Source of the DNA: Artemia franciscana
Taxonomy: Eukaryota; Arthropoda; Branchiopoda; Anostraca; Artemiidae
Direction: 5' to 3'
Assembly (NCBI RefSeq): GCF_032884065.1
Contig: NC_088866.1
Span: 52,956,068 to 53,020,067 of the forward strand
DNA: 64,000 nt
Numbering within the stretch: position 1 is the stretch's first letter; each line of letters begins with the position of its first letter. This document shows, in pieces, positions 30,318-64,000 of the stretch. A program made the position numbers and the translations under genes. The notes beneath the pieces were generated by a model that was not told where the DNA came from, did no database searches, and saw nothing but the letters and a program-made list of their open reading frames with translations.

Positions 30318-30357
<40 letters not shown>

Positions 30358-30713: not shown

Positions 30714-30749
<36 letters not shown>

Positions 30750-30895
30750 CCTCCCTGTGTGTTTGTCTTTATGTATTTCTGTCAGTGTGGGTCTTTTGGT
30801 TTGTGTTTGACATGGTGTTTATGTGTGTGTTTTTCTCTCTCACCATGTCTGTGTATCTTCTAGTCTCTATGCTTGTCTTTTGTGTTTGTGCACCT
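27350..30895 (+). repeat. GT/CT-rich tandem repeat, right inner arm
   Basis: This is the inverse complement of the left inner arm: units of about 95-105 bp with ctctctctcaccgtgcctgtg, tgtctgactgtgtgtttgcc and tgtctctgtgtctgtctttg. It is about 1.4 kb longer than the left inner arm. A pure (CT)n run lies at 29870-29966. Ser/Leu/Cys-rich reading frames are artefacts. Confidence 0.9.
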
Positions 30896-39574: not shown

Positions 39575-40436
39575 ATGAATTATCCAACCCTCTCAGATTA
39601 CAGTTCTAGGAAACCCATTGAAAAACAAGCTACTATCGTTATTTCGAAAATTCCGATTAATTTGTACAAGCCAATTAATCGTATGGGTGCAATTACCAAA
39701 ATCCGCGGTCATGAAGCTATTCATAGTGTCAAAGCCTTGGGCGATAAAATTTTCGTTCAGATTGATACTACTGCAGCAAAATATTTTTTGTGACGCTACT
39801 TCTTACTAGCTGTGACGTCAGACTTAAAGTCTGTTTGACGTTCTTGATTTTAGAGGTTGATCAGGTAGAATGTCACGGTGCTCAGATTTAGAAAGTAAGA
39901 ACTTTCCAAAACTCATTATTAGAGTTTCGTACCGGTTTTGGAGTGACGGCAGTCCTAGCACTTCCAGAGCCTTTTCGTAGGGGATCTCACAGCCAGACTT
40001 AAAGAATACAAATTGTTTGGAATTGTGAAAGGCGTATATAAAGCTTGTGCAGCGGAGCTGTTTATTGGTCGCGATGGTATTGTTGATGCAAATAGGATTG
40101 ACAACTCAACCTCAGTGAAAGTGTCTTTCCAAGATGCTATTGCGCTCTCTAATGCTCTCCGATTGGGCTTAAAAATGGGATATGAAATATTCCAAGTTTT
40201 AAATATATATGGCCTCCTCGTCGCTCCACAAACTTCGATCACCGCATCGCCTAGCAGTAAAATGCAACCAAGCTATAAAATGTCCTAGATGTGCTGGTTC
40301 CCATGTGTCTACAAAAAACACTCCCTGCCAAGACATCCCGAAGTGTGCTAACTGCGGGGATGCTCGTTTTGCTTTCTGTCTTAAGTGTCGAGTCATTCAT
40401 GATGTTCTCAAAAAGAGCCAAAAGGTAAAGAAATGA
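39575..40436 (+). pseudogene. LINE ORF1 (gag-like, zinc knuckles), frame-shifted
   Basis: Three frames carry the pieces in order. 39575-39793 encodes IVISKIPINLYKP and RMGAITKIRGHEAIHSVKAL-like sequence. About 40010-40210 encodes FGIVKGVYKACAAEL...LRLGLKMGYEIFQV. 40209-40436 encodes a cysteine-rich tail with CPRCAGSH and CANCGD...CLKC, the degenerate zinc knuckles of non-LTR ORF1 nucleic-acid-binding proteins. The cysteine-rich frame ends at 40436, overlapping the ORF2 start (ATGA). Frame shifts make it inactive. Confidence 0.65.
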
Positions 40437-44408: not shown

Positions 44409-45006
44409 CTAAAAAATAGATAGGTCAGAACTTTGAGAAAATTCGTTAAGAGCCTTACTTTTTGAAAAAATATTTATGTGAGTGACATCATTTTTATATA
44501 CATCAGTATTGCAATGACGTTGCCACGCATTATATGAAAAAACTGAAGGTCTTCATGCATGACGAAGTTTAAATTATATCAATTTAAGAGCAACAAACCG
44601 GTAATTGCAAAAATATTTGTATATATTTTAACAAGCGACTACAACAATTCAAAAACCTTGAAAAGAAAACCAAACGTTTGAAGCTTAGTAGACAATCGGT
44701 GTTACAAATCGTACTTGATTCGATAATCAAATATCTTTGAAAATTCGAAGTATGAAGATATAACTAATTTAAAGGTAGCGCCAAAAGACGAAAAAAAAGA
44801 AAAAAACGAAAATGGAAGAAAAAGAAATTTTTGTCCCTCAACCTGAACAATTAACAAATCCATACCTGGAACATCATGTAAGACTAGACCAATAAGGGCA
44901 GCTAAAGAAAATGGCATTGGCATCGAATTCACAATGGGTGAAAATCAACAACCTGCACCACCAAATGAGACAAGACCCAATAAACAATAATAATAACAAT
45001 AATAAA

Positions 45007-45820
45007 TCTATATATGTATAAAAATAAGTTGTTTGTCTGTGTGTCTATCTACTGACGTCATGTTTGTGTGTCGACTGACGTCATGTTTGTCGACTGACGT
45101 CATTATAAGGATTGAGCTGTGTGTCGTCATGAAGTTGTTTGTCGTCTGACGTCATGTTTGTCGACTGACGAAATTACAGACCGGGACACCGGGACACAAA
45201 TGATGACCGGGACACAGGGAATATAAATGACGACCGGGACACATCATATACCAATTCAAAAACGAATGTATTCAAGCCGAAGTAGCTGAGTTTGTAAAGC
45301 GTTATGTTCCAGGTCCAAGAGGTTCCAGGTTCGAACCTTGGCTTTAGCATTAATACAAAAGAAGAAAAAAAACTAAAAAGAAAATACTAAAAAAACTAAA
45401 AAAAGGTAAAAACTAAAAACAAAAAAAGAAAAAAAAACTAAAAAAAAAAAAACTAAAAAAAAGATAAAAACTACAAAAAAACTAAAAAGAAAAAAAAACA
45501 AAAAACAAAAACTAGAAAAAACTAAAAAAACTAAAAACTGAAAAAAAAACTAAAAAAAGAAAAAAACTGAAATATAAAGGAGAAAAAGAAAACTAAAAAC
45601 CGAGACACAGGGAATATAAATGACGACCGGGACACTCAAAGAGAAATTACAGACTGGGACACTGGGATACAAATAATGACCGAGAGATATAAATGACGAC
45701 CGGGACACTCAAAGATAAATTACAGACCGGGACACCGGGACACGGTCGTCATTTGTGTCCCACAAAAAAACATACAAAAAAACAAACATGCCTACAACTT
45801 GTTTTTATATATATAGAGCT
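45007..45820 (+). mobile_element. Small inverted-repeat element within unit 1
   Basis: The ends are inverted copies: TCTATATATGTATAAAAATA then AGTTGT at the left, and, complemented, TCTATATATATAAAAACAAG then TTGT at the right. Inside are several TGACGTCA palindromes (45055-45105), repeated gaccgggacac words at both ends, a tRNA-like sequence and an (A)n-ct-rich stretch (45360-45590). No protein is encoded. Left ends of the form TCTATATATA...AAGTT are common on Helitron-type elements, but no CTRR terminus is seen, so the class is open. Confidence 0.6.
45276..45349 (+). tRNA. tRNA-like sequence, probably pseudogene or SINE head
   Basis: It has an A box (TAGCTGAGTTTGTAAAGCG), a B box (GGTTCGAACCT), a T arm CCAGG/CTTGG and an acceptor stem GCCGAAG/CTTTAGC with one mismatch and one wobble. 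The anticodon stem does not pair convincingly, so no anticodon is assigned. It is followed by an A-rich tail, as in tRNA-derived SINEs. Confidence 0.5.
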
Positions 45821-46682
45821 GCCGTGTCCGAAACCTCTATACAAGAATCTTACAATCTCTTAGCTTGAAGAACAAAGAAAATATGTTGACTGGAAAAACA
45901 AGATAAGTGACTTGAACTACGATATTCTAGTTCAAAGGTTTCTTTTTTTCCATTCTTTCTCCTCAGCTAGTAGGGGACTGGAACATCATAGATAGCCATT
46001 TTAAAGGAAATTGATGTATTTCCTTTCATTACCTTTCATAATTAAATTTTTTTAAAATTAAAATCAATTTCTTACAAAAACTGTGTTTTTTCATTAACAC
46101 TTTAGCAGCAAATGTTTTAAATATCTTCTTGCATACAAAGATAAAAATGGGAGTGGCTCCGACGCAAGGACCTTAGTAGTCAAGAAGCGTCGTTAATTCT
46201 TAAATAATAAAAATGGGATTTTTAAAATTATCAAAAGCATATAGATATAGTTGTATAAAATGAAATATCTTTTTTAGGGTTTAACAAAAATCGGATTTGT
46301 CCAATGAAACTAGAATTTTAAATAAAATAATTTTATTTCATCTCTCAGTTCAAATTTATAATTGTGTCCTAGAACCAAGCTTTTCTTTGGCTTAACTCCA
46401 AAACTGAGGATCTCTATGACGGCGTGTTTTATTTCTATAGAAAAAAAAAAATCAAAATGAATTTTATTTTCGTTCTCAGTTCAGAATCGCTAAGGTTATT
46501 ATGTAAACTGCAAAAATATTTAAGTTGTCTTAGTAATAATTATGATTTTTCAGTTCCAAATAAAAAAAATACTTTAAAATGTTAAAGTTAGCTTTGTTTT
46601 TGTTAGGTTCTTGCTATTCGACGCATGACTTTAACTCTCAAGTCATTTTATGAGAAGAATTTTATACAATCAAAAAGATATT

Positions 46683-47633
46683 ATGGCCGCAAATCAACAA
46701 AGTAAAACAACCCTTCAAATTCGCATAGCAGCATGTTCGTACAACGTAAAGAACAAAAGCAGTACAGATGTTGTATCTATGCCATTAGAAAATTGGCTCC
46801 TTGGTGACAAAGAAACAATCGATTCAAAAAAAAAGGAAGCATACAAAGATGTTGATATATATGCCGTGGGATTCCAAGAAGTAGATGATCCTACCATCGG
46901 AAGCATTATAGACGATAAAAGTCTAGGCCATATGGTTCTACAAAATTCAATTCAAAAAATCCTAACAAAGGTGGGCATCTATAAATGCTTAATCTCAGTA
47001 GAGCTACAGAAAAAGCGTCTGTACATTTTTATAAAAGAGTGTTTATTTAAATATGTTGCCAACGTTTCAGCAGACGCAATCGATGTAAGCCCTAGGACAA
47101 CACCAAGCTCTAAAGGTGCCGTATTTGTCCGATTCCTTTTGCATTCAACATCATTTGCTTTTGCGTGTAGTCATCAGACAGCTTTCGAAAATAGACTGCT
47201 TGAGAGAAATAAAAACATTATTGAAATCGCTAAAAACCTCTCTTCCCCATACGCAATAGACCTTCATTCTCATGATTACGTAATTTGGCTTGGCGATCTC
47301 AATTATCGCTTGGAAATGCCTAAAGAAACAGCAGAAAAACTAGCTGTGCATACAAACTGGCCAGAACTGTTAAAATACGATCAATTGGAGAGATCCCGTG
47401 AACCAGATGGCATTTCCCAAGATTATCAAGAAGCTAATATTACGTTTCTTAGTCAGGAGCAACGTGTCTTAGTCAGGAAACGAAAAAAGAACTTGACTTA
47501 TAATTCAATATATTATGGATCGGCTAAATTAAGAACGAGTGATCATCGGCCAGTTATATTAATTTTTGACATTGATGTCCTCCCACTTGACGAATCGAAG
47601 ATCCAGGTTGCAGCAGTAGCCACTAACTCCTAA
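46683..47633 (+). CDS. Synaptojanin-like inositol 5-phosphatase domain protein, copy 1
   Basis: An intronless frame of 316 codons. I chose the ATG at 46683 (attATGG, good context); the frame stays open to an ATG at 46650. Motifs in order: YNVKN (20-24), LENWLLGD (35-42), FQE (64-66), SKGAVFVRF (143-151), CSHQTA (162-167), LERN (173-176), SHDYVIWLGDLNYRL (196-210), YYGSAKLRTSDHRPV (277-291), DIDV (296-299). This is the order of the type II inositol-polyphosphate 5-phosphatase fold, closest in my reading to synaptojanin. Enzymes of the family remove the 5-phosphate from phosphoinositides at membranes. The domain stands alone, without Sac1 or proline-rich regions. About 20 residues and the W-x-D-R motif are missing between 255 and 270, so activity is doubtful. 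Whether it is expressed is unknown. Confidence 0.8.
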   Translation: MAANQQSKTTLQIRIAACSYNVKNKSSTDVVSMPLENWLLGDKETIDSKKKEAYKDVDIYAVGFQEVDDPTIGSIIDDKSLGHMVLQNSIQKILTKVGIYKCLISVELQKKRLYIFIKECLFKYVANVSADAIDVSPRTTPSSKGAVFVRFLLHSTSFAFACSHQTAFENRLLERNKNIIEIAKNLSSPYAIDLHSHDYVIWLGDLNYRLEMPKETAEKLAVHTNWPELLKYDQLERSREPDGISQDYQEANITFLSQEQRVLVRKRKKNLTYNSIYYGSAKLRTSDHRPVILIFDIDVLPLDESKIQVAAVATNS

Positions 47634-47639
47634 GTCAAT

Positions 47640-48130
47640 AATTAGACATCTGCTAATTGTTCAGGTGGTGGAAGAATTTTTTTTTCTTCTAACGAATTAT
47701 CATTTATAACGCTCATAAATTTCCGCTTTTTGGGTCTTGTCTCATTTGATGGTCCAGGTTGTTGATTTTGACGCATTGTCAATTCAATGCCAATGCCCAT
47801 CCCTTTAGCAGCCCTTATTGGTCTTGTCTTGCATGACGTTCAATGTTGTAGATTGTTAATTCTTCAGGTGGTGGGACAAAAACTTCTCTTTCTTCCAAGG
47901 AATTACCGTTTATAAATCTTGTAAGTATTCGTTTTTTAGGTCTTATTTGATTTGATGGTCCAGGTTGTTGATTTTCACCCGTTGTGAATACAATGTCAAT
48001 GCCATTTCCTTTAGCTGCCCTTATTGGTCTAGTTACATGATGTTCCAGGTTTTAGATCTGTTAATTGATCAGGTGGTGGGACAAAAACTTTTTCTTCCAA
48101 CACTTTATCTATTCCAGGTTCTTGATTTTC
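47640..48130 (-). repeat. Three diverged copies of a 204-bp peptide-like motif
   Basis: On the minus strand the words ENQQPGPSNETRPKKR, SLEEKKILPPPEQL and RAAKGMGIGIELTM recur in shifting frames; plus-strand anchors caggtggtgg lie at 47663, 47866 and 48070. A fourth copy lies in the opposite orientation at 44800-44990 (GIGIEFTMGENQQPAPPNET). It looks like an old repeated coding sequence now broken by frame shifts. The source protein is not recognised. The same block follows the ORF in units 2-4 (54901-55395, 59876-60370, 63082-63576). Confidence 0.6.
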
Positions 48131-48139
48131 AAAGATATT

Positions 48140-50055
48140 TTATATATAAGCTTTCTATTTGATATAGAAGGTACGGAGGTATTTGGTATTATTAAAATTC
48201 ATATCACTGTGAAGGAATACTCATGATTTTGAAGGTTTTGTCCTAATTAAGCTCTGTTGCACTAATTTGGAAATTATGTTGTTAGTTTCATATATTAACT
48301 TTCTATTTGATATAGAAGGTATTAAGGTATTTGGTATTATTAAAATTTATATCACTGTGAAGGAATACTCTTGATTTTGAAGGTTTCGTCCTAATTAAGT
48401 ACTGTTGCACTAATTTGGAAATTATGTTGTTAGTTTCATATATAAACTTTCCATTTGATATAGAAGGTATTAAGGTATTTCGTATTATTAAAATTAATAT
48501 CACTGTGAAGGAATACTCTTGATTTTGAAGGTTTCGTCCTAATTAAGTACTGTTGCACTAATTTGGAAATTATGTTGTTAGTTTCATATATAAACTTTCC
48601 ATTTGATATAGAAGGTATTAAGGTATTTCGTATTATTAAAATTAATATCACTGTGAAGGAATACTCTTGATTTTGAAGGTTTCGTCCTAATTAAGTACTG
48701 TTGCACTAATTTGGAAATTATGTTGTTAGTTTCATATATAAACTTTCCATTTGATATAGAAGGTATTAAGGTATTTCGTATTATTAAAATTTATATCACT
48801 GTGAAGGAATACTCTTGATTTTGAAGGTTTCGTCCTAATTAAGTACTGTTGCACTAATTTGGAAATTATGTTGTTAGTTTCATATATAAACTTTCTATTT
48901 GATATAGAAGGTATTAAGGTATTTGGTATTATTAAAATTCATATCACTGTGAATGAATGCTCATGATTTTGAAGGTTTCGTCCTAATTAAGCACTGTTGC
49001 ACTAATTTGGAAATAATGTTGTTAGTTTCATATACAAACTTTCTATTTGATATAGAAGGTATTAAGGTATTTCGTATTATTAAAATTCATATCACTGTGA
49101 AGGAATACTCTTGATTTTGAAGGTTTCGTCCTAATTAAGTACTGTTGCACTAATTTGGAAATTATGTTGTTAGTTTCATATATAAACTTTCTATTTGATA
49201 TAGAAGGTATTAAGGTATTTCGTATTATTAAAATTCATATCACTGTGAAGGAATACTCATGATTTTGAAGGTTTCGTCTTAAGTACTGTTGCACTAATTT
49301 GGAAATTATGTTGTTACTTTCATATATAAACTTTCTATTTGATATAGAAGGTATTAAGGTATTTGGTATTATTAAAATTCATATCACTGTGAATGAATGC
49401 TCATGATTTTGAAGGTTTCGTCCTAATTAAGCACTGTTGCACTAATTTGGAAATAATGTTGTTAGTTTCATATACAAACTTTCTATTTGATATAGAAGGT
49501 ATTAAGGTATTTCGTATTATTAAAATTCATATCACTGTGAAGGAATACTCATGATTTTGAAGGTTTCGTCTTAAGTACTGTTGCACTAATTCGGAAATTA
49601 TGTTGTTAGTTTCATATATAAACTTTCTATTTGATATAGAAGGTATTAAGGTATTTGGTATTATTAAAATTCATATCACTGTGAGGAATACTCTTGATTT
49701 TGAAGGTTTCGTCCTAATTAAGTACTGTTGCACTAATTTGGAAATTATGTTGTTAGTTTCATATATAAACTTCCTATTTGATATAGAAGGTATTAAGGTA
49801 TTTGGTATTATTAAATTCATATCACTGTGAAGGAATACTCATGATTTTGAAGGTTTCGTCCTAATTAAGCACTGTTGCATTAATTCGGAAATTATGTTCT
49901 TAGTTTCATATATAAACTTTCTATTTGATATAGAAGGTATCAAGGTATTTGGTATTATTAAAATTCATATCACTGTGAGGAATACTCATGATTTTGAAGG
50001 TTTCGTCCCAATTAAGCACTGTTGCATTAATTCGGAAATTATGTTCTTAGTTTCA
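48140..50055 (+). repeat. 148-bp internal repeats, 13 units
   Basis: The unit contains tatttgatatagaaggtatt, aggtatttggtattatt, atatcactgtgaaggaatac and aaggtttcgtcctaattaag. Successive atgttgttag words at 48276, 48424, 48572 and 48720 give 148 bases; later units are 137-148. Long frames over it are repeat artefacts. Equivalent blocks end each array unit. Confidence 0.95.
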
Positions 50056-50572
50056 TTTTTATATACATCAGTATTGCAATGACGTTGCCACGCATTATAT
50101 GAAAAAACTGAAGGTCTTCATGCATGACGAAGTTTAAATTATATCAATTTAAGAGCAACAAACCGGTAATTGCAAAAATATTTGTATATATTTTAACAAG
50201 CGACTACAACAATTCAAAAACCTTGAAAAGAAAACCAAACGTTTGAAGCTTAGTAGACAATCGGTGTTACAAATCGTACTTGATTCGATAATCAAATATC
50301 TTTGAAAATTCGAAGTATGAAGATATAACTAATTTAAAGGTAGCGCCAAAAGACGAAAAAAAAAGAAAAAAACGAAAATGGAAGAAAAAGAAATTTTTGT
50401 CCCTCAACCTGAACAATTAACAAATCCATACCTGGAACATCATGTAAGACTAGACCAATAAGGGCAGCTAAAGAAAATGGCATTGGCATCGAATTCACAA
50501 TGGGTGAAAATCAACAACCTGCACCACCAAATGAGACAAGACCCAATAAACAATAATAATAACAATAATAAA

Positions 50573-51363
50573 TCTATATATGTATAAAAATAAGTTGTTT
50601 GTCTGTGTGTCTATCTACTGACGTCATGTTTGTGTGTCGACTGACGTCATTATAAGGATTGAGCTGTGTGTCGTCATGAAGTTGTTTGTCGTCTGACGTC
50701 ATGTTTGTCGACTGACGAAATTACAGACCGGGACACCGGGACATAAATGATGACCGGGACACAGGGAATATAAATGACGACCGGGACACATCATATACCA
50801 ATTCAAAAACGAATGTATTCAAGCCGAAGTAGCTGAGTTTGTAAAGCGTTATGTTCCAGGTCCGAGAGGTTCCAGGTTCGAACCTTGGCTTTAGCATTAA
50901 TACAAAAGAAGAAAAAAAACTAAAAAGAAAATACTAAAAAAACTAAAAAAAGGTAAAAACTAAAAACAAAAAAAGAAAAAAAAACTAAAAAAAAAAACTA
51001 AAAAAAAGATAAAACTACAAAAAAACTAAAAAGAAAAAAAAACAAAAAACAAAAACTAGAAAAAACTAAAAAAACTAAAAACTGAAAAAAAAAACTAAAA
51101 AAAGAAAAAAACTGAAATATAAAGGAGAAAAAGAAAACTAAAAACCGAGACACAGGGAATATAAATGACGACCGGGACACTCAAAGAGAAATTACAGACT
51201 GGGACACTGGGATACAAATAATGACCGAGAGATATAAATGACGACCGGGACACTCAAAGATAAATTACAGACCGGGACACCGGGACACGGTCGTCATTTG
51301 TGTCCCACAAAAAAACATACAAAAAAACAAACATGCCTACAACTTGTTTTTATATATATAGAG
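50573..51363 (+). mobile_element. Small inverted-repeat element within unit 2
   Basis: Copy of the 45007-45820 element with the same ends and one fewer tgtcgactgacgtcat word. Confidence 0.6.
50823..50896 (+). tRNA. tRNA-like sequence, unit 2
   Basis: Identical to the unit-1 copy except tccgagagg for tccaagagg in the anticodon/variable region. A and B boxes are unchanged. Probably not a functional tRNA. Confidence 0.5.
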
Positions 51364-52227
51364 CTGCCGTGTCCGAAAGCTCTATACAAGAATCTTACAA
51401 TCTCTTAGCTTGAAGAACAAAGAAAATATGTTGACTGGAAAAACAAGATAAGTGACTTGAACTACGATATTCTAGTTCAAAGGTTTCTTTTTTTCCATTC
51501 TTTCTCCTCAGCTAGTAGGGGACTGGAACATCATAGATAGCCATTTTAAAGGAAATTGATGTATTTCCTTTCATTACCTTTCATAATTAAATTTTTTTTA
51601 AATTAAAATCAATTTCTTACAAAAACTGTGTTTTTTCATTAACACTTTAGCAGCAAATGTTTTAAATATCTTCTTGCATACAAAGATAAAAATGGGAGTG
51701 GCTCCGACGCAAGGACCTTAGTAGTCAAGAAGCGTCGTTAATTCTTAAATAATAAAAATGGGATTTTTAAAATTATCAAAAGCATATAGATATAGTTGTA
51801 TAAAATGAAATATCTTTTTTAGGGTTTAACAAAAATCGGATTTGTCCAATGAAACTAGAATTTTAAATAAAATAATTTTATTTCATCTCTCAGTTCAAAT
51901 TTATAATTGTGTCCTAGAACCAAGCTTTTCTTTGGCTTAACTCCAAAACTGAGGATCTCTATGACGGCGTGTTTTATTTCTATAGAAAAAAAAAAATCAA
52001 AATGAATTTTATTTTCGTTCTCAGTTCAGAATCGCTAAGGTTATTATGTAAACTGCAAAAGTATTTAAGTTGTCTTAGTAATAATTATGATTTTTCAGTT
52101 CCAAATAAAAAAAATACTTTAAAATGTTAAAGTTAGCTTTGTTTTTGTTAGGTTCTTGCTATTCGACGCATGACTTTAACTCTCAAGTCATTTTATGAGA
52201 AGAATTTTATACAATCAAAAAGATATT

Positions 52228-54894
52228 ATGGCCGCAAATAAACAAAGTAAAACAACCCTTCAAATTCGCATAGCAGCATGTTCGTACAACGTAAAGAACA
52301 AAAGCAGTACAGATGTTGTATCTATGCCATTAGAAAATTGGCTCCTTGGTGACATTAAATAAAAAAAACAAGTTTTTTCAACTGAAAGTAAGGAGTGACA
52401 TCAAAACTTAAAACGCACAGAAATTACTTCGTATATGAAAGAGGCTGCTTCCTCATCAACGCCCCGCTCTTTACGCTAAAGTTTGACTTTCTCTCAATTC
52501 TTCTTTCTAAAACAGTAAAAAACTTTAGCGTAAAGAGCGGGGCGTTGATGAGGAAGCAGCCTCTTTCATATACGAAGTAATTTCTGTGCGTTTTAAGTTT
52601 TGATGTCACTCCTTACTTTCAGTTGAAAAAACTTGTTTTTTTTATTTAATTTCTGAACGTTTTTGAATCAATGCATGTTTTGATTTTGGCTCTCCGCATA
52701 GGAATGATCAAAACGAAATTTACATATTTTTTTTTTGGCGCAATAGCTTTCTCATAATTTTGATCGAATGATTTTGAGAAAAAAAGAGCGGGGGACGAAG
52801 CCTAGTTGCCCCCCGATTTTTTGGTTAATTAAAAAGGCAACTAGAACTTTTAATTTTTTACGAATCTTTTTATTGGTAAAAGATTTACGTAACTTATAAA
52901 TTAGCTTACGTAAAGAACTTTTGTATTCTCATGTTTTTATTACATACATGAGGGGATTCGCCCCATCGTCAGTACCTCGCTCTTTACACTAAAGCTTAAA
53001 TTTTATCCCAATTCATTAAGAATGACCCCCTGAATCACAAAAGCCGTAGAATAAGTAGTTGAAATTACCGAAAATACTTTAGCGTAAAGAGCGAGGTATT
53101 AGAAGGAGGTGAGCCCCTCATATGGGTAATAATTTCTGTTTGTTTTCAGTTTTATTGCTGTTCCTTACTTCCAGCTGAAAAAGCTTTTTCACTTTTATTT
53201 TTTAATTGTTTTTTTTTTAATAATGCTAGTAAATCCTGCTCTCCCTTCATGGAAATTTTCTTCTCCCATTACAAATTCTCGAAGGAAAGTTCCCCCAGCA
53301 TATCCCCCTCTTCTCAACCCCTCCCCCAAACCAAAAAAATCCTCCTGAAAACGCCTGTATACTTCCCAATAACCATTACTATATGTAAGCACAGGTCAAA
53401 GTTTGTAACTTGTTGCCCCTCCCACGGGGACTGTGGGGGAGTAAGTCGTCCCCAAAGACATAGTTATAAGGTTTTTCGACTACGCTGAATAAAATGGCTA
53501 TCTCAGAATTTTGATCCGTTGACTTTGGGAAAATAATTAGCGTGGGAGGGGGCCTAGGTGCCCTCCAATTTTTTTGGTCACTTAAAAAGGGCACTAGAAC
53601 TTTTCATTTCCGTTAGAATGAGCCCTCTTGTAACATTCTAGGACAACTGGGTCGATACGATCACCCCTGGGGAAAAGAAAAAAAAAACAAAAAAACAAAA
53701 AAACAAATAAACACGCATCCGTGATCTGCCTTCTGGCAAAAAATGCAAAATTCCACATTTTTGTAGATAGGAGCTCGAAACTTCTACAGTAGGGTTATCT
53801 GATACGCTGAATCTGATGGTGTGATTTTCGTTAAGATTCTATGACTTTTAGGGGACGTTTCCCCCTATTCTCTAAAATAACGCAAATTTTCTCAGGCTCG
53901 TAACTTTTGATGGGTAAAACTAAACTTGATGAAACTTATATATTTAAAACCAGCATTAAAATGCGATTCTTTTGATGTAGCTATTGGTATCAAAATTCCA
54001 TTTTTTAGAGTTTTGGTTACTATTGAGCCGGGTCGCTCCTTACTACAGTTCGTTACCACGAACTGTTTGAAAGAAACAATCGATTCAAAAAAAAAGGAAG
54101 CATACAAAGATGTTGATATATATGCCGTGGGATTCCAAGAAGTAGATGATCCTACCATCGGAAGCATTATAGACGATAAAAGTCTAGGCCATATGGTTCT
54201 ACAAAATTCAATTCAAAAAATACTAACAAAGGTGGGCATCTATAAATGCTTAATCTCAGTAGAGCTACAGAAAAAGCGTCTGTACATTTTTATAAAAGAG
54301 TGTTTATTTAAATATGTGCGCAACGTTTCAGCAGACGCAATCGATGTAAGCCCTAGGACAACACCAAGCTCTAAAGGTGCCGTATTTGTCCGATTCCTTT
54401 TGCATTCAACATCATTTGCATTTACGTGTAGTCATCTGACAGCTTTCGAAAACAGACTGCTTGAGAGAAATAAAAACTATTTTGAAATTGCTAAAAACCT
54501 CTCTTCCCCATACGCAATAGACCTTCATTCTCATGATTACGTAATTTGGCTTGGCGATCTCAATTATCGCTTGGAAATGCCTAAAGAAACAGCAGAAAAA
54601 CTAGCTGTGCATACAAACTGGCCAGAACTGTTAAAATACGATCAATTGGAGAGATCCCGTGAACCAGATGGCATTTCCCAAGATTATCAAGAAGCTAATA
54701 TTACGTTTCTTAGTCAGGAGCAACGTGTCTTAGTCAGGAAACGAAAAAAGAACTTGACTTATAATTCAATATATTATGGATCGGCTAAATTAAGAACGAG
54801 TGATCATCGGCCAGTTATATTAATTTTTGACATTGATGTCCTCCCACTTGACGAATCGAAGATCCAGGTTGCAGCAGTAGCCACTAACTCCTAA
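52228..54894 (+). pseudogene. Synaptojanin-like phosphatase, copy 2, split by insertion
   Basis: The first 42 codons (52228-52353) end in LLGD exactly where the family-1 element begins. The remainder resumes at 54070 with KETIDSKKKEAY and runs to the stop at 54892-54894. Read through, the element supplies stops within a few codons, so the full protein cannot be made. The 3' part differs from copies 1, 3 and 4 in a cluster between about 54225 and 54490: YVRN for YVAN, FTCSHLTA for FACSHQTA, NYFEIAKN for NIIEIAKN. These variants are nearer to the family consensus. Confidence 0.85.
52354..54069 (+). mobile_element. Family-1 interspersed repeat, copy F, 1716 bp, in the phosphatase ORF
   Basis: Comparison with unit 1 defines the insertion: the uninterrupted sequence ggtgac|aaagaaac is split by attaaataaa...gaactgtttg, with no target duplication (or one base, if the first a is counted). 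Its 5' end is a perfect-looking inverted repeat: left arm 52354-52484, loop 35 bases, right arm 52520-52650. The 3' end has the hairpin cagttcg-ttacca-cgaactg. No transposase. Confidence 0.93.
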
Positions 54895-55399
54895 GTCAAT
54901 AATTAGACATCTGCTAATTGTTCAGGTGGTGGAAGAATTTTTTTTTCTTCTAACGAATTATCATTTATAACGCTCATAAATTTCCGCTTTTTGGGTCTTG
55001 TCTCATTTGATGGTCCAGGTTGTTGATTTTGACGCATTGTCAATTCAATGCCAATGCCCATCCCTTTAGCAGCCCTTATTGGTCTTGTCTTGCATGACGT
55101 TCAATGTTGTAGATTGTTAATTCTTCAGGTGGTGGGACAAAAACTTCTCTTTCTTCCAAGGAATTACCGTTTATAAATCTTGTAAGTATTCGTTTTTTAG
55201 GTCTTATTTGATTTGATGGTCCAGGTTGTTGATTTTCACCCGTTGTGAATACAATGTCAATGCCATTTCCTTTAGCTGCCCTTATTGGTCTAGTTACATG
55301 ATGTTCCAGGTTTTAGATCTGTTAATTGATCAGGTGGTGGGACAAAAACTTTTTCTTCCAACACTTTATCTATTCCAGGTTCTTGATTTTCAAAGATAT

Positions 55400-56728
55400 T
55401 TTATATATAAGCTTTCTATTTGATATAGAAGGTACGGAGGTATTTGGTATTATTAAAATTCATATCACTGTGAAGGAATACTCATGATTTTGAAGGTTTT
55501 GTCCTAATTAAGGTCTGTTGCACTAATTTGGAAATTATGTTGTTAGTTTCATATATTAACTTTCTATTTGATATAGAAGGTATTAAGGTATTTGGTATTA
55601 TTAAAATTTACATCACTGTGAAGGAATACTCTTGATTTTGAAGGTTTCGTCCTAATTAAGTACTGTTGCACTAATTTGGAAATTATGTTGTTAGTTTCAT
55701 ATATAAACTTTCCATTTGATATAGAAGGTATTAAGGTATTTCGTATTATTAAAATTCATATCACTGTGAAGGAATACTCTTGATTTTGAAGGTTTCGTCC
55801 TAATTAAGCACTGTTGCACTAATTTGGAAATTATGTTGTTAGTTTCATATATAAACTTTCCATTTGATATAGAAGGTATTAAGGTATTTCGTATTATTAA
55901 AATTAATATCACTGTGAAGGAATACTCTTGATTTTGAAGGTTTCGTCCTAATTAAGTACTGTTGCACTAATTTGGAAATTATGTTGTTAGTTTCATATAT
56001 AAACTTTCTATTTGATATAGAAGGTATTAAGGTATTTGGTATTATTAAAATTCATATCACTGTGAATGAATGCTCATGATTTTGAAGGTTTCGTCCTAAT
56101 TAAGCACTGTTGCACTAATTTGGAAATAATGTTGTTAGTTTCATATACAAACTTTCTATTTGATATAGAAGGTATTAAGGTATTTCGTATTATTAAAATT
56201 CATATCACTGTGAAGGAATACTCATGATTTTGAAGGTTTCGTCTTAAGTACTGTTGCACTAATTCGGAAATTATGTTGTTAGTTTCATATATAAACTTTC
56301 TATTTGATATAGAAGGTATTAAGGTATTTGGTATTATTAAAATTCATATCACTGTGAGGAATACTCTTGATTTTGAAGGTTTCGTCCTAATTAAGTACTG
56401 TTGCACTAATTTGGAAATTATGTTGTTAGTTTCATATATAAACTTCCTATTTGATATAGAAGGTATTAAGGTATTTGGTATTATTAAATTCATATCACTG
56501 TGAAGGAATACTCATGATTTTGAAGGTTTCGTCCTAATTAAGCACTGTTGCATTAATTCGGAAATTATGTTCTTAGTTTCATATATAAACTTTCTATTTG
56601 ATATAGAAGGTATCAAGGTATTTGGTATTATTAAAATTCATATCACTGTGAGGAATACTCATGATTTTGAAGGTTTCGTCCCAATTAAGCACTGTTGCAT
56701 TAATTCGGAAATTATGTTCTTAGTTTCA
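55400..56728 (+). repeat. 148-bp internal repeats, 9 units
   Basis: Same unit as at 48140-50055; tatagaagg anchors near 55416, 55571, 55718, 55866, 56013, 56162, 56306, 56454 and 56602. The number of units differs from the neighbours, as expected from unequal exchange. Confidence 0.95.
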
Positions 56729-57244
56729 TTTTTATATACATCAGTATTGCAATGACGTTGCCACGCATTATATGAAAAAACTGAAGGTCTTCATGCATGA
56801 CGAAGTTTAAATTATATCAATTTAAGAGCAACAAACCGGTAATTGCAAAAATATTTGTATATATTTTAACAAGCGACTACAACAATTCAAAAACCTTGAA
56901 AAGAAAACCAAACGTTTGAAGCTTAGTAGACAATCGGTGTTACAAATCGTACTTGATTCGATAATCAAATATCTTTGAAAATTCGAAGTATGAAGATATA
57001 ACTAATTTAAAGGTAGCGCCAAAAGACGAAAAAAAAGAAAAAAACGAAAATGGAAGAAAAAGAAATTTTTGTCCCTCAACCTGAACAATTAACAAATCCA
57101 TACCTGGAACATCATGTAAGACTAGACCAATAAGGGCAGCTAAAGAAAATGGCATTGGCATCGAATTCACAATGGGTGAAAATCAACAACCTGCACCACC
57201 AAATGAGACAAGACCCAATAAACAATAATAATAACAATAATAAA

Positions 57245-58054
57245 TCTATATATGTATAAAAATAAGTTGTTTGTCTGTGTGTCTATCTACTGACGTCATG
57301 TTTGTGTGTCGACTGACGTCATGTTTGTCGACTGACGTCATTATAAGGATTGAGCTGTGTGTCGTCATGAAGTTGTTTGTCGTCTGACGTCATGTTTGTC
57401 GACTGACGAAATTACAGACCGGGACACCGGGACATAAATGATGACCGGGACACAGGGAATATAAATGACGACCGGGACACATCATATACCAATTCAAAAA
57501 CGAATGTATTCAAGCCGAAGTAGCTGAGTTTGTAAAGCGTTATGTTCCAGGTCCGAGAGGTTCCAGGTTCGAACCTTGGCTTTAGCATTAATACAAAAGA
57601 AGAAAAAAAACTAAAAAGAAAATACTAAAAAAACTAAAAAAAGGTAAAAACTAAAAACAAAAAAAGAAAAAAAAACTAAAAAAAAAAACTAAAAAAAGAT
57701 AAAAACTACAAAAAAACTAAAAAGAAAAAAAAACAAAAAACAAAAACTAGAAAAAACTAAAAAAACTAAAAACTGAAAAAAAAAACTAAAAAAAGAAAAA
57801 AACTGAAATATAAAGGAGAAAAAGAAAACTAAAAACCGAGACACAGGGAATATAAATGACGACCGGGACACTCAAAGAGAAATTACAGACTGGGACACTG
57901 GGATACAAATAATGACCGAGAGATATAAATGACGACCGGGACACTCAAAGATAAATTACAGACCGGGACACCGGGACACGGTCGTCATTTGTGTCCCACA
58001 AAAAAACATACAAAAAAACAAACATGCCTACAACTTGTTTTTATATATATAGAG
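57245..58054 (+). mobile_element. Small inverted-repeat element within unit 3
   Basis: Copy of the 45007-45820 element, same ends, including the full set of TGACGTCA words. Confidence 0.6.
57514..57587 (+). tRNA. tRNA-like sequence, unit 3
   Basis: Same as the unit-2 copy (tccgagagg form). A box, B box, T arm and most of the acceptor stem kept; anticodon arm unpaired. Confidence 0.5.
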
Positions 58055-58918
58055 CTGCCGTGTCCGAAACCTCTATACAAGAATCTTACAATCTCTTAGC
58101 TTGAAGAACAAAGAAAATATGTTGACTGGAAAAACAAGATAAGTGACTTGAACTACGATATTCTAGTTCAAAGGTTTCTTTTTTTCCATTCTTTCTCCTC
58201 AGCTAGTAGGGGACTGGAACATCATAGATAGCCATTTTAAAGGAAATTGATGTATTTCCTTTCATTACCTTTCATAATTAAATTTTTTTTAAATTAAAAT
58301 CAATTTCTTACAAAAACTGTGTTTTTTCATTAACACTTTAGCAGCAAATGTTTTAAATATCTTCTTGCATACAAAGATAAAAATGGGAGTGGCTCCGACG
58401 CAAGGACCTTAGTAGTCAAGAAGCGTCGTTAATTCTTAAATAATAAAAATGGGATTTTTAAAATTATCAAAAGCATATAGATATAGTTGTATAAAATGAA
58501 ATATCTTTTTTAGGGTTTAACAAAAATCGGATTTGTCCAATGAAACTAGAATTTTAAATAAAATAATTTTATTTCATCTCTCAGTTCAAATTTATAATTG
58601 TGTCCTAGAACCAAGCTTTTCTTTGGCTTAACTCCAAAACTGAGGATCTCTATGACGGCGTGTTTTATTTCTATAGAAAAAAAAAAATCAAAATGAATTT
58701 TATTTTCGTTCTCAGTTCAGAATCGCTAAGGTTATTATGTAAACTGCAAAAATATTTAAGTTGTCTTAGTAATAATTATGATTTTTCAGTTCCAAATAAA
58801 AAAAATACTTTAAAATGTTAAAGTTAGCTTTGTTTTTGTTAGGTTCTTGCTATTCGACGCATGACTTTAACTCTCAAGTCATTTTATGAGAAGAATTTTA
58901 TACAATCAAAAAGATATT

Positions 58919-59869
58919 ATGGCCGCAAATCAACAAAGTAAAACAACCCTTCAAATTCGCATAGCAGCATGTTCGTACAACGTAAAGAACAAAAGCAGTA
59001 CAGATGTTGTATCTATGCCATTAGAAAATTGGCTCCTTGGTGACAAAGAAACAATCGATTCAAAAAAAAAGGAAGCATACAAAGATGTTGATATATATGC
59101 CGTGGGATTCCAAGAAGTAGATGATCCTACCATCGGAAGCATTATAGACGATAAAAGTCTAGGCCATATGGTTCTACAAAATTCAATTCAAAAAATCCTA
59201 ACAAAGGTGGGCATCTATAAATGCTTAATCTCAGTAGAGCTACAGAAAAAGCGTCTGTACATTTTTATAAAAGAGTGTTTATTTAAATATGTTGCCAACG
59301 TTTCAGCAGACGCAATCGATGTAAGCCCTAGGACAACACCAAGCTCTAAAGGTGCCGTATTTGTCCGATTCCTTTTGCATTCAACATCATTTGCTTTTGC
59401 GTGTAGTCATCAGACAGCTTTCGAAAATAGACTGCTTGAGAGAAATAAAAACATTATTGAAATCGCTAAAAACCTCTCTTCCCCATACGCAATAGACCTT
59501 CATTCTCATGATTACGTAATTTGGCTTGGCGATCTCAATTATCGCTTGGAAATGCCTAAAGAAACAGCAGAAAAACTAGCTGTGCATACAAACTGGCCAG
59601 AACTGTTAAAATACGATCAATTGGAGAGATCCCGTGAACCAGATGGCATTTCCCAAGATTATCAAGAAGCTAATATTACGTTTCTTAGTCAGGAGCAACG
59701 TGTCTTAGTCAGGAAACGAAAAAAGAACTTGACTTATAATTCAATATATTATGGATCGGCTAAATTAAGAACGAGTGATCATCGGCCAGTTATATTAATT
59801 TTTGACATTGATGTCCTCCCACTTGACGAATCGAAGATCCAGGTTGCAGCAGTAGCCACTAACTCCTAA
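58919..59869 (+). CDS. Synaptojanin-like inositol 5-phosphatase domain protein, copy 3
   Basis: Encodes the same 316-residue protein as copy 1, with no difference that I can see in the translated sequence, including the loss of the W-x-D-R segment. Upstream sequence back to the AT-rich spacer is also the same. The near identity implies recent duplication or ongoing homogenisation. Function and expression unknown. Confidence 0.8.
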   Translation: MAANQQSKTTLQIRIAACSYNVKNKSSTDVVSMPLENWLLGDKETIDSKKKEAYKDVDIYAVGFQEVDDPTIGSIIDDKSLGHMVLQNSIQKILTKVGIYKCLISVELQKKRLYIFIKECLFKYVANVSADAIDVSPRTTPSSKGAVFVRFLLHSTSFAFACSHQTAFENRLLERNKNIIEIAKNLSSPYAIDLHSHDYVIWLGDLNYRLEMPKETAEKLAVHTNWPELLKYDQLERSREPDGISQDYQEANITFLSQEQRVLVRKRKKNLTYNSIYYGSAKLRTSDHRPVILIFDIDVLPLDESKIQVAAVATNS

Positions 59870-60374
59870 GTCAATAATTAGACATCTGCTAATTGTTCAG
59901 GTGGTGGAAGAATTTTTTTTTCTTCTAACGAATTATCATTTATAACGCTCATAAATTTCCGCTTTTTGGGTCTTGTCTCATTTGATGGTCCAGGTTGTTG
60001 ATTTTGACGCATTGTCAATTCAATGCCAATGCCCATCCCTTTAGCAGCCCTTATTGGTCTTGTCTTGCATGACGTTCAATGTTGTAGATTGTTAATTCTT
60101 CAGGTGGTGGGACAAAAACTTCTCTTTCTTCCAAGGAATTACCGTTTATAAATCTTGTAAGTATTCGTTTTTTAGGTCTTATTTGATTTAATGGTCCAGG
60201 TTGTTGATTTTCACCCGTTGTGAATACAATGTCAATGCCATTTCCTTTAGCTGCCCTTATTGGTCTAGTTACATGATGTTCCAGGTTTTAGATCTGTTAA
60301 TTGATCAGGTGGTGGGACAAAAACTTTTTCTTCCAACACTTTATCTATTCCAGGTTCTTGATTTTCAAAGATAT

Positions 60375-61850
60375 TTTATATATAAGCTTTCTATTTGATA
60401 TAGAAGGTACGGAGGTATTTGGTATTATTAAAATTCATATCACTGTGAAGGAATACTCATGATTTTGAAGGTTTTGTCCTAATTAAGGTCTGTTGCACTA
60501 ATTTGGAAATTATGTTGTTAGTTTCATATATTAACTTTCTATTTGATATAGAAGGTATTAAGGTATTTGGTATTATTAAAATTTACATCACTGTGAAGGA
60601 ATACTCTTGATTTTGAAGGTTTCGTCCTAATTAAGTACTGTTGCACTAATTTGGAAATTATGTTGTTAGTTTCATATATAAACTTTCCATTTGATATAGA
60701 AGGTATTAAGGTATTTCGTATTATTAAAATTCATATCACTGTGAAGGAATACTCTTGATTTTGAAGGTTTCGTCCTAATTAAGCACTGTTGCACTAATTT
60801 GGAAATTATGTTGTTAGTTTCATATATAAACTTTCCATTTGATATAGAAGGTATTAAGGTATTTGGTATTATTAAAATTCATATCACTGTGAATGAATGC
60901 TCATGATTTTGAAGGTTTCGTCCTAATTAAGCACTGTTGCACTAATTTGGAAATAATGTTGTTAGTTTCATATACAAACTTTCTATTTGATATAGAAGGT
61001 ATTAAGGTATTTCGTATTATTAAAATTCATATCACTGTGAAGGAATACTCATGATTTTGAAGGTTTCGTCTTAAGTACTGTTGCACTAATTTGGAAATTA
61101 TGTTGTTACTTTCATATATAAACTTTCTATTTGATATAGAAGGTATTAAGGTATTTGGTATTATTAAAATTCATATCACTGTGAATGAATGCTCATGATT
61201 TTGAAGGTTTCGTCCTAATTAAGCACTGTTGCACTAATTTGGAAATAATGTTGTTAGTTTCATATACAAACTTTCTATTTGATATAGAAGGTATTAAGGT
61301 ATTTCGTATTATTAAAATTCATATCACTGTGAAGGAATACTCATGATTTTGAAGGTTTCGTCTTAAGTACTGTTGCACTAATTCGGAAATTATGTTGTTA
61401 GTTTCATATATAAACTTTCTATTTGATATAGAAGGTATTAAGGTATTTGGTATTATTAAAATTCATATCACTGTGAGGAATACTCTTGATTTTGAAGGTT
61501 TCGTCCTAATTAAGTACTGTTGCACTAATTTGGAAATTATGTTGTTAGTTTCATATATAAACTTCCTATTTGATATAGAAGGTATTAAGGTATTTGGTAT
61601 TATTAAATTCATATCACTGTGAAGGAATACTCATGATTTTGAAGGTTTCGTCCTAATTAAGCACTGTTGCATTAATTCGGAAATTATGTTCTTAGTTTCA
61701 TATATAAACTTTCTATTTGATATAGAAGGTATCAAGGTATTTGGTATTATTAAAATTCATATCACTGTGAGGAATACTCATGATTTTGAAGGTTTCGTCC
61801 CAATTAAGCACTGTTGCATTAATTCGGAAATTATGTTCTTAGTTTCATTT
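60375..61850 (+). repeat. 148-bp internal repeats, 10 units
   Basis: Same unit as in the other array units, with ten tatagaagg anchors; it ends at the start of unit 4. Confidence 0.95.
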
Positions 61851-61852
61851 TT

Positions 61853-64000
61853 ATATACATCAGTATTGCAATGACGTTGCCACGCATTATATGAAAAAAC
61901 TGAAGGTCTTCATGCATGACGAAGTTTAAATTATATCAATTTAAGAGCAACAAACCGGTAATTGCAAAAATATTTGTATATATTTTAACAAGCGACTACA
62001 ACAATTCAAAAACCTTGAAAAGAAAACCAAACGTTTGAAGCTTAGTAGACAATCGGTGTTACAAATCGTACTTGATTCGATAATCAATCAAATCAATCAA
62101 ATTTTATACAATCAAAAAGATATTATGGCCGCAAATCAACAAAGTAAAACAACCCTTCAAATTCGCATAGCAGCATGTTCGTACAACGTAAAGAACAAAA
62201 GCAGTACAGATGTTGTATCTATGCCATTAGAAAATTGGCTCCTTGGTGACAAAGAAACAATCGATTCAAAAAAAAAGGAAGCATACAAAGATGTTGATAT
62301 ATATGCCGTGGGATTCCAAGAAGTAGATGATCCTACCATCGGAAGCATTATAGACGATAAAAGTCTAGGCCATATGGTTCTACAAAATTCAATTCAAAAA
62401 ATCCTAACAAAGGTGGGGATCTATAAATGCTTAATCTCAGTAGAGCTACAGAAAAAGCGTCTGTACATTTTTATAAAAGAGTGTTTATTTAAATATGTTG
62501 CCAACGTTTCAGCAGACGCAATCGATGTAAGCCCTAGGACAACACCAAGCTCTAAAGGTGCCGTATTTGTCCGATTCCTTTTGCATTCAACATCATTTGC
62601 TTTTGCGTGTAGTCATCAGACAGCTTTCGAAAATAGACTGCTTGAGAGAAATAAAAACATTATTGAAATCGCTAAAAACCTCTCTTCCCCATACGCAATA
62701 GACCTTCATTCTCATGATTACGTAATTTGGCTTGGCGATCTCAATTATCGCTTGGAAATGCCTAAAGAAACAGCAGAAAAACTAGCTGTGCATACAAACT
62801 GGCCAGAACTGTTAAAATACGATCAATTGGAGAGATCCCGTGAACCAGATGGCATTTCCCAAGATTATCAAGAAGCTAATATTACGTTTCTTAGTCAGGA
62901 GCAACGTGTCTTAGTCAGGAAACGAAAAAAGAACTTGACTTATAATTCAATATATTATGGATCGGCTAAATTAAGAACGAGTGATCATCGGCCAGTTATA
63001 TTAATTTTTGACATTGATGTCCTCCCACTTGACGAATCGAAGATCCAGGTTGCAGCAGTAGCCACTAACTCCTAAGTCAATAATTAGACATCTGCTAATT
63101 GTTCAGGTGGTGGAAGAATTTTTTTTTCTTCTAACGAATTATCATTTATAACGCTCATAAATTTCCGCTTTTTGGGTCTTGTCTCATTTGATGGTCCAGG
63201 TTGTTGATTTTGACGCATTGTCAATTCAATGCCAATGCCCATCCCTTTAGCAGCCCTTATTGGTCTTGTCTTGCATGACGTTCAATGTTGTAGATTGTTA
63301 ATTCTTCAGGTGGTGGGACAAAAACTTCTCTTTCTTCCAAGGAATTACCGTTTATAAATCTTGTAAGTATTCGTTTTTTAGGTCTTATTTGATTTAATGG
63401 TCCAGGTTGTTGATTTTCACCCGTTGTGAATACAATGTCAATGCCATTTCCTTTAGCTGCCCTTATTGGTCTAGTTACATGATGTTCCAGGTTTTAGATC
63501 TGTTAATTGATCAGGTGGTGGGACAAAAACTTTTTCTTCCAACACTTTATCTATTCCAGGTTCTTGATTTTCAAAGATATTTTATATATAAGCTTTCTAT
63601 TTGATATAGAAGGTACGGAGGTATTTGGTATTATTAAAATTCATATCACTGTGAAGGAATACTCATGATTTTGAAGGTTTTGTCCTAATTAAGGTCTGTT
63701 GCACTAATTTGGAAATTATGTTGTTAGTTTCATATATTAACTTTCTATTTGATATAGAAGGTATTAAGGTATTTGGTATTATTAAAATTTACATCACTGT
63801 GAAGGAATACTCTTGATTTTGAAGGTTTCGTCCTAATTAAGTACTGTTGCACTAATTTGGAAATTATGTTGTTAGTTTCATATATAAACTTTCCATTTGA
63901 TATAGAAGGTATTAAGGTATTTCGTATTATTAAAATTCATATCACTGTGAAGGAATACTCTTGATTTTGAAGGTTTCGTCCTAATTAAGCACTGTTGCAC
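61853..64000 (+). repeat. Tandem array unit 4 (internally deleted, cut by window end)
   Basis: The 5' flank is normal to gattcgataatcaa (62085), then jumps to aattttatacaatc, the sequence 24 bases upstream of the preferred ATG. This removes about 1.93 kb relative to unit 1, including the TIR element and tRNA-like sequence. The junction is padded with tcaatcaaatcaatcaa, a short-word duplication. The 148-bp block starts at 63581 and is truncated by the window. Confidence 0.92.
62125..63075 (+). CDS. Synaptojanin-like inositol 5-phosphatase domain protein, copy 4
   Basis: The 316-codon frame is as in copies 1 and 3; one silent change is visible (ggg for ggc at the VGIYK glycine). The deletion upstream puts the frame in phase with an ATG at 62035, giving a possible 30-residue N-terminal addition (MKLSRQSVLQIVLDS...) from former non-coding flank. 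The ATG at 62125 keeps its good context and is my preferred start. The usual upstream spacer is gone, so any promoter there is lost too. Confidence 0.78.
   Translation: MAANQQSKTTLQIRIAACSYNVKNKSSTDVVSMPLENWLLGDKETIDSKKKEAYKDVDIYAVGFQEVDDPTIGSIIDDKSLGHMVLQNSIQKILTKVGIYKCLISVELQKKRLYIFIKECLFKYVANVSADAIDVSPRTTPSSKGAVFVRFLLHSTSFAFACSHQTAFENRLLERNKNIIEIAKNLSSPYAIDLHSHDYVIWLGDLNYRLEMPKETAEKLAVHTNWPELLKYDQLERSREPDGISQDYQEANITFLSQEQRVLVRKRKKNLTYNSIYYGSAKLRTSDHRPVILIFDIDVLPLDESKIQVAAVATNS

Follow-up and report, generated by a model that had tools for sequence, protein, structure and literature searches.

To our knowledge, the gene-carrying macrosatellites known are mammalian. In D4Z4, each copy of a tandem unit carries DUX4, a gene described as a retrogene in the consulted sections of two papers (PMC5849414, PMC2965761), and in RS447 the DUB/USP17 gene family is placed inside tandemly repeated sequence by the consulted sections of a third (PMC2874809). 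Both resemble an array that begins in a stretch of 64,000 nucleotides from Artemia franciscana (scaffold C4:52,956,068-53,020,067, hereafter the window), in which an intronless open reading frame (ORF) for a synaptojanin-like 5-phosphatase domain recurs in head-to-tail units. For the study of this array, the window was joined with the adjoining sequence up to C4:53,098,000. As known here from assembled sequence, the locus is probably the product of a very recent tandem amplification at the DNA level, namely a coding macrosatellite comparable to D4Z4/DUX4 or RS447/USP17.

The array extends from window position 44488 to C4:53,073,709, beyond the end of the window. Sixteen unit starts can be found in the assembly, corresponding to 15 ORF-bearing units of 3.2-7.2 kb and one ORF-less piece of 1369 bp that contains a gap of 100 N; besides this piece, the spacings from start to start are 3205-3206, 5118-5119, 5565, 6673 and 7246 bp. 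What characterizes a coding macrosatellite, kilobase-sized tandem units each harboring an ORF, is found here in 15 units, 14 of which retain a complete frame of 316 codons (three of the four in the window); in unit 2 the frame is broken after ORF base 160 by an insertion of about 1.7 kb. The units in the window display, in order, a flank, an element with short terminal inverted repeats (TIRs) that includes a tRNA-like sequence, a spacer, the phosphatase ORF, 204-bp motifs and 148-bp repeats. This order, the start at 44488 and the three intact ORFs had been noted for the four window units in an earlier sequence-only reading, and all of them are confirmed. The array, described there for 44488-64000, continues past the window, and the 148-bp satellite block is present in the four window units and absent from unit 15.

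Two basic types of unit can be distinguished, a long one of 5.1 kb and a short one of 3.2 kb; the short unit corresponds to a long one from which 1.93 kb has been deleted, leaving a 12-bp filler (TCAAATCAATCA). The reverse, a short ancestor with a later insertion, is less likely, as the junction has filler and no duplication, and is also disfavored by a truncated copy at C4:52.777 Mb that has the spacer absent from the short unit. Units 3, 7, 9 and 10 are identical across 5119 bp. Pairwise comparison of interior long units gives 0-3 mismatches per 5.1 kb, and 11-48 when an edge unit (1, 2 or 15) enters the comparison; the identity of several units over 5.1 kb bears out the recent amplification proposed in the sequence-only reading. 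Another insertion is found in unit 5. Helitrons are defined by a 5' TC, a 3' hairpin with CTRR, and insertion between A and T, all of which are displayed by the unit 5 insertion, with junctions GATA/TCTATA... and ...GGGGTGGCGCGAAGCGCCACCCC...CTAG/TAGTTG (read by eye), so that it is of Helitron type. Helitrons account for 8.81% of the A. franciscana female assembly in the part of its description drawn on here (PMC11492255).

Unit junctions consist of the 148-bp satellite (AGTTTCAT) followed by the flank (TCATTTTTATATAC), with TCAT common to both. Unit 15 passes into unrelated flank at exactly the position at which the satellite begins in the others, and acquisition of this block at the first duplication junction is hence the most likely course. 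The presence of filler at both deletions, that of 1.93 kb and that of catalytic motif 2 (see below), suggests end joining of the polymerase-theta type.

The ORF matches the 5-phosphatase domain PF22669 (144.9 bits against a cut-off of 27), and its best match in the PDB is synaptojanin-1 (E 1.5e-44); together with the unit starts, these matches substantiate the earlier description of a tandem array of intronless synaptojanin-like 5-phosphatases. PF22669 is the sole domain in the three array proteins scanned, in which neither the SAC domain nor DUF1866 was found. The second ATG (46683) opens the 316-codon frame; long units, but not short ones, have a further in-frame ATG upstream, at 46650. The best protein match is QYM36_012721, an annotated A. 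franciscana protein of the same length and start. Secretion was considered on account of a signal-peptide-like frame (MLKLALFLLGSCYS...) upstream of the ORF and discarded, this frame being out of frame with the ORF and terminating where the ORF starts; it likewise lies in another frame than the ORF in the truncated copy.

Proteins of the 5-phosphatase family harbor motif 1, (F/I)WxGDxNxR, motif 2, (R/N)xP(S/A)WxDR(I/V)L, and the catalytic SDHRP, and motif 2 is required for activity. Motif 1 is found in the array ORF as VIWLGDLNYR, where G204, D205, N207, Y208 and R209 are invariant among 29 aligned proteins, and SDHRP as TSDHRPVIL, where S286, D287, H288 and P290 are nearly invariant among these 29; the E of FQE and the H of CSH are also kept. 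Motif 2 is not found, only its R-V-L tail being left (local sequence ITFLSQEQRVLVRKRKK). Elsewhere, the motif reads PAWTDRVL in the synaptojanin gene on C14, PSWTDRIL in the related gene on C3, and an altered PSYTDKVL in the broken copy on C63.

Regarding the origin of the phosphatase, the C14 gene is a canonical, intron-containing synaptojanin of the parent type (exons L033-L036), whose exons end inside stretches where the array ORF continues unbroken. Because it is intronless across the intron sites of this parent, the ORF is, on sequence comparison, a copy derived via RNA from the 5-phosphatase domain of Artemia synaptojanin. It lacks the 3' end of the parent, as does the intronless C3 gene. 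In a tree of 19 proteins, C14, C3, C63 and the array are grouped at 98/95, the array and C63 at 100/100, and C3 pairs with array/C63 at 99/98. A C3-like gene may have been an intermediate, in which case part of the intron loss occurred there. The C3 locus itself (L022, C3:20918001-20928000) displays an uninterrupted frame of 866 amino acids that comprises SAC and 5-phosphatase domains and ends just past the phosphatase; annotated as synaptojanin-1-like (861 amino acids) and with motifs 1 and 2 kept, it is apparently an intact intronless synaptojanin.

A genome search with the ORF considered 19 candidates and gave 20 matching rows, of which 16 belong to the array, unit 2 being matched as two pieces. 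The others are two pieces on C63 (78% and 87%), a 326-base piece at C4:52,778,412 (94%) and, on C14, 55 bases matching in the leader region, so that whole-genome searching with the ORF places the phosphatase in the array, a truncated C4 copy and the broken C63 copy only, plus that short C14 leader match. About 225 kb from the array, the C4 locus matches the left flank at 95% and the spacer and ORF start at 94%, and similarity ends at ORF base 326; since flank, spacer and ORF start match and similarity then stops, it is a truncated relative of the unit. Spread of the phosphatase as a mobile element was rejected, with just three loci found by DNA search. A viral origin was also considered: one ORF scan of viral contigs gave 10 pattern matches, none of which was confirmed.

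Queries taken from unit 1 and searched genome-wide show that the left flank, the spacer arm, the 204-bp motif and the 148-bp satellite belong to families occurring elsewhere too (1519, 2450 and 988 first-look candidates for the first three, with 40 scored for each, and 37 for the satellite, with 36 scored). Further satellite blocks are located on C160, C1 and C226, with weaker matches elsewhere, and no phosphatase was found beside the blocks on these three. Pieces of the short-TIR element, which did not serve as a query of its own, match loci L044, L045, L046 and L054. The tRNA-like sequence that had been noticed in this element scores above the gathering score of the Rfam tRNA family (35.9 bits against 29), whereas no tRNA was reported by ARAGORN run with bacterial settings. 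The interpretation of 44488 as a transposon terminus was dropped, since the matches begin at the point where the query itself began.

The spacer arm is of particular relevance to the ORF. With 46476-46720 as query, 40 matches were scored: 28 dispersed ones, 11 from the array and 1 from the truncated copy. Among the dispersed matches, four (C368, two on C15, and C7; 77-79%) span 46490-46710 and end 28 bases into the ORF; L051, found separately, also ends at 46710. In the leader alignment, L051 and L058 read ATTATGGTCTCAAGAGAACAAA, changes are seen in L052 and L057, and the array and truncated copies read ATTATGGCCGCAAATSAACAAA. As the homology of the family passes through the ATG and stops 28 bases into the ORF, a dispersed repeat, judging from these alignments, supplied the leader, the ATG and about nine codons. 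The C-terminal codons are likely to derive from a module of the same repeat, since they resemble a module matched by pattern in four arm-homology loci (L052, L053, L054 and L056); none of 2000 shuffles reaches the score in three of the four comparisons. Within the window, the 21-base C-terminal pattern, made after viewing the ORF, occurs in the four ORFs only (expected 0.00), which indicates no more than that such a word is uncommon.

The sequence-only reading had presented capture of a retrocopy by a mobile repeat and tandem amplification of a gene as alternatives. In fact, both partly hold: the ORF is intronless and lies inside dispersed repeats that gave it a start codon, the phosphatase itself is not spreading, and the copy number stems from tandem amplification at one locus. 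The combination named there as telling against the idea, an intron-containing parent elsewhere with all copies frame-broken, is not what is found, the C14 parent being accompanied by 14 intact frames out of 15.

Comparison of the array with C63 over 296 codons (C63 stop codons and gapped codons excluded) gives a synonymous divergence (dS) of 0.43 and a nonsynonymous divergence (dN) of 0.23, i.e., a ratio of 0.52 (bootstrap 0.38-0.75). For the array and the truncated copy, dN/dS is 0.75 over 97 codons (0.29-3.62); of their 19 differences, C63 polarizes 16, assigning 15 to the array branch (nonsynonymous in 11 cases, synonymous in 4) and the remaining one to the truncated copy. Statistically, the ratio for the array and C63 shows that protein-level constraint acted before amplification. 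Clear constraint since amplification was not found, ORF substitutions per base being no fewer than in most of the non-coding parts compared, and the persistence of open frames is best read as mainly due to the very recent amplification. The selection at which the sequence-only reading hinted is hence retained for the older, purifying phase and leaves no clear sign after amplification.

Several points weigh against the account given above. The 100-N gap lies within the array, so that the 15 copies of the assembly may not equal those of the animal, and the series long-short-long(867C)-short-long formed by units 3-7 is repeated across the gap as units 10-14, which possibly reflects joined haplotypes or a higher-order duplication. 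Because of the gap and of the unit block recurring on both its sides, copy number is taken here as that of the assembly and not of the animal. The assembly (JAVRJZ, about 1.27 Gb, 21 chromosome-scale scaffolds, with chromosome 1 as the Z) was produced with Peregrine from 20-kb PacBio Sequel libraries of 14 pooled females, as stated in the sections of its description consulted (PMC11492255). With pooled females, such a library and the same run of units on both sides of the gap, it is a real possibility, short of probable, that haplotypes or overlapping contigs were joined there and copy number inflated; however, an unbroken stretch to the left of the gap contains nine ORF-bearing units, and private differences in units 1, 2, 5 and 15 indicate that the array as such is no artefact. 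With regard to the retrocopy, no poly(A) tract was seen by eye behind the domain, and the tree flags C3 and the array as long branches. The probable catalytic impairment of the array protein, if made, is read from the sequence, in which motif 2 is gone and motif 1 and SDHRP remain. Polarization covers 97 codons and uses one outgroup, C63, which is itself broken. Concerning the leader, 24 of the 28 dispersed arm matches end at 46633-46661, before the ATG (22 of them at 46637), and the four reaching 46710 lead one related ORF family and hence are not mutually independent. The C-terminal module is short (15-26 bp ungapped in three comparisons), its score is reached by 3 of 2000 shuffles in the fourth comparison, and a longer C-terminal stretch compared with ten targets beat shuffles for C63 only and for no arm locus.

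It can also be hypothesized that the arms constitute a gene-carrying inverted-repeat (foldback-like) mobile element whose leader serves a variety of ORFs, with the phosphatase as one cargo mobilized before tandem amplification, which is unlikely but deserves consideration. Foldback transposons consist of a variable centre between long inverted arms, an arrangement that members of the spacer-arm family do show: inward-facing pairs occur on C18 (10,409,500-10,415,500; inverted alignment of 968 bp, 75%) and C17 (4,062,500-4,067,500; 557 bp, 82%). Between the C17 arms lies an open frame of 242 amino acids (L053:1666-2391; C17:4064166-4064891) with relatives at two C11 sites; no confident family was found for it, and a protein search with 231 of its residues gave one unnamed match. 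A leader of the MVSREQ(S/N)KR type, common to the C63 and C4 phosphatase copies, runs into unrelated sequences in L058, L051 and, in altered form, L052. In L058 (C15:33484241-33484540), it is followed by an unrelated frame that is open through all 98 codons available; C15 holds a near-identical ORF 3 kb away, C368 has another, C7 carries a divergent one and C5 weaker repeats, and neither a confident family nor a solved structural relative was found for the L058 ORF. Against this, the element would be defined, at the sequence level, by its arms, without defined termini, transposase or target-site duplications; the frames behind the leader are broken in L051 and L052; the phosphatase is found at only three loci by DNA search; the arm remnant on C63 covers about 40 bp before other repeats follow (by eye); and the array unit has a single arm of the family, not two. 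As a separate observation, the ORFs behind the phosphatase-type leader at C368:41766-42420, C7:61580279-61581235 and L058 on C15 are lysine-rich, and a related open frame of 585 amino acids at C5:38580800-38582107 displays internal protein repeats.

Retention of the amplified copies by selection for the dosage of a new protein, e.g., a phosphoinositide-binding decoy of synaptojanin, is doubtful. The 14 complete frames, the past dN/dS and the 15 of 16 polarized changes on the array branch would be consistent with it, as would simulation, in which the chance of remaining free of stop codons is 0.285, 0.096, 0.037 and 0.0125 after 25, 49, 75 and 100 random substitutions, respectively. The ORF also has no indel runs, against 2, 2 and 6 in three non-coding parts (2, 0 and 3 when units 2 and 15 are set aside), which is at most a hint of constraint because the events are so few. 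However, the ORF is not the quietest part of the unit: among 14 units, 15 of its 975 columns are variable (11 from unit 15), against 5/496, 1/401 and 9/833 in the non-coding parts, and without units 2 and 15 the figures are 4/975 against 1/496, 0/400 and 4/814. On the array branch, the proportion of 11 nonsynonymous to 4 synonymous changes is compatible with near-neutral change.

A more speculative proposal, and one to which little probability can be given, is the following: the inverted-arm element would act as a gene starter, providing a leader, an ATG and an MVSREQSKR-like tag for whatever joins behind; the phosphatase, the lysine-rich proteins of C15, C368 and C7, and possibly the 242-residue C17 protein would be separate products, and the motif-less phosphatase would then have been amplified as a phosphoinositide-binding decoy.

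Under the preferred reading, that of a recently amplified coding macrosatellite, the following order of events can be proposed. An RNA-derived 5-phosphatase copy ended up within a dispersed repeat, as seen in the alignments, and took its 5' end from the leader, ATG and nine codons of that repeat; its last codons stem, with less certainty, from a repeat module. The resulting chimaeric gene was under protein-level constraint for a time, as shown by the substitution statistics. The C4 lineage then lost the motif 2 segment by an in-frame deletion with filler, which can be read directly at the deletion site, and in the polarizable stretch the array lineage changed faster than its truncated sister copy. 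One copy would have been duplicated via a junction whose anatomy is observed, with the captured 148-bp block and 4 bp of TCAT microhomology, by a mechanism that is presumed; long and short units would have been propagated by unequal exchange, with the insertions of units 2 and 5 arriving later. If translated, the array may offer many near-identical templates for an impaired phosphoinositide-phosphatase fold with no signal peptide (by eye).

The features of the window that belong to the array are collected in Table 1. Elsewhere in the window, a minisatellite is found at 35378-37318 (92 bp, 21 copies, 98% matches), a simple-repeat tract at 24001-32000 has an AT skew that jumps from +0.28 to -0.70 near 28000, and another 100-N assembly gap occupies 18389-18488. 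A frame of 161 amino acids at 40433-40918 resembles by eye a fragment of a non-long-terminal-repeat retroelement endonuclease and has no Pfam match. Among other 5-phosphatases of the genome, OCRL-like sequences on C1 (L017-L021; 12.32 Mb and 15.46-15.49 Mb) include an uninterrupted frame of 777 amino acids, as well as four partial copies clustered within 30 kb, the domain being broken by a stop in two of these. Genome-wide, COX1 gives 75 matching rows, 74 of which lie outside the mitochondrion-like 15.8-kb contig C6468, so that nuclear mitochondrial copies are abundant.

Table 1. Positions of array features in the window (numbering of the window; strand "." where none applies).
Feature	Position	Strand	Remarks
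Unit 1	44488..50052	+	long type; 148-bp block longer than in other units
Dispersed repeat, left flank	44488..44815	+	left break point of tandem duplication; TCAT common to 148-bp satellite
204-bp motif, sense copy	44813..45006	+	84-85% inverted matches to 47727-48099
Short-TIR element, A-rich core	45007..45817	.	TIRs about 45007-45031 and 45795-45817, by eye
tRNA-like sequence in short-TIR element	45276..45349	+	RF00005, 35.9 bits, E 4.9e-5
Dispersed-repeat arm (spacer)	45818..46710	+	includes 5' leader, ATG and first 9 ORF codons; family elsewhere also in inward-facing pairs
Unit 1 ORF, 316 codons	46683..47633	+	
5-phosphatase domain PF22669	46734..47558	+	motif 1 (WLGDLNYR) and SDHRP retained
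Site of missing TYKYD...PxWxD segment (motif 2)	47449..47475	+	11-bp filler TTAGTCAGGAG resembles sequence just downstream; C63 relative retains segment
C-terminal ORF codons resembling module of same repeat family	47602..47622	+	
204-bp motifs, antisense copies	47634..48130	-	
Unit 1 148-bp satellite block	48138..50056	+	
Unit 2	50053..56725	+	long type; ORF interrupted by insertion
Unit 2 ORF, 5' piece	52195..52354	+	
Insertion splitting unit 2 ORF	52355..54069	.	
Unit 2 ORF, 3' piece	54070..54894	+	sequence variant common to unit 15
Unit 2 148-bp satellite block	55399..56729	+	
Unit 3	56726..61844	+	long type (5119 bp); no differences from units 7, 9 and 10
Unit 3 ORF, intact	58919..59869	+	
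Unit 3 148-bp satellite block	60374..61848	+	
Unit 4	61845..64000	+	short type, 3206 bp; runs past window end
12-bp filler TCAAATCAATCA at 1.93-kb deletion, unit 4	62088..62099	+	
Unit 4 ORF, intact	62125..63075	+	
Unit 4 148-bp satellite block	63580..64000	+	cut by window end

Among solved structures, the closest relative by sequence is the 5-phosphatase of synaptojanin (PDB 7a0v, 7a17), with which the array protein has the domain family, motif 1 and SDHRP in common and from which it differs in lacking the SAC domain, DUF1866 and motif 2. Weak similarity is also found to a salivary nitrophorin (PDB 4l1z and 1ntf; E 6.4e-6 and 1.2e-5), which we take to be a bed-bug protein with a 5-phosphatase-like fold turned to another use. 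Nitrophorin is secreted, whereas no in-frame signal peptide was seen in the array ORF. Stellate is a tandem array of a host-gene derivative. The Stellate/crystal system of Drosophila (PMC7874207) can be named for comparison; its sex linkage, silencing partner and expression have no shown counterpart in the Artemia array. That the latter is a selfish system of this kind, with testis-expressed amplified host-gene copies silenced by small RNAs, would follow by analogy only, from a host-gene-derived protein, a tandem array and one lost catalytic feature, and is highly improbable.

No description of this array was found among the listed papers covered here, which take in few of the subscription journals. 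With a broken relative on C63 and a truncated one some 225 kb away, this young crustacean macrosatellite makes the order of events readable within one genome, from the repeat-donated start codon through constraint and loss of a catalytic motif to amplification. Whether dispersed repeats can supply start codons to new genes repeatedly can be tested directly on the leader that unrelated ORFs have in common. Compared with D4Z4/DUX4, the array harbors a phosphatase domain instead of a homeobox, has a repeat-derived start codon and a 148-bp satellite in its unit, and is found in a crustacean host. RS447 resembles it in unit size and intronlessness. Macrosatellites of the D4Z4/RS447 kind also differ in copy number among individuals and are expressed in the germline or early embryo. 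The USP17 proteins are described as deubiquitinating enzymes in the consulted sections on RS447 (PMC2874809), whereas the array ORF lacks one catalytic motif. A gene-carrying satellite is unusual and not unprecedented: the kind is known, and what sets this array apart is a start codon supplied by a repeat and the loss of a motif before amplification.

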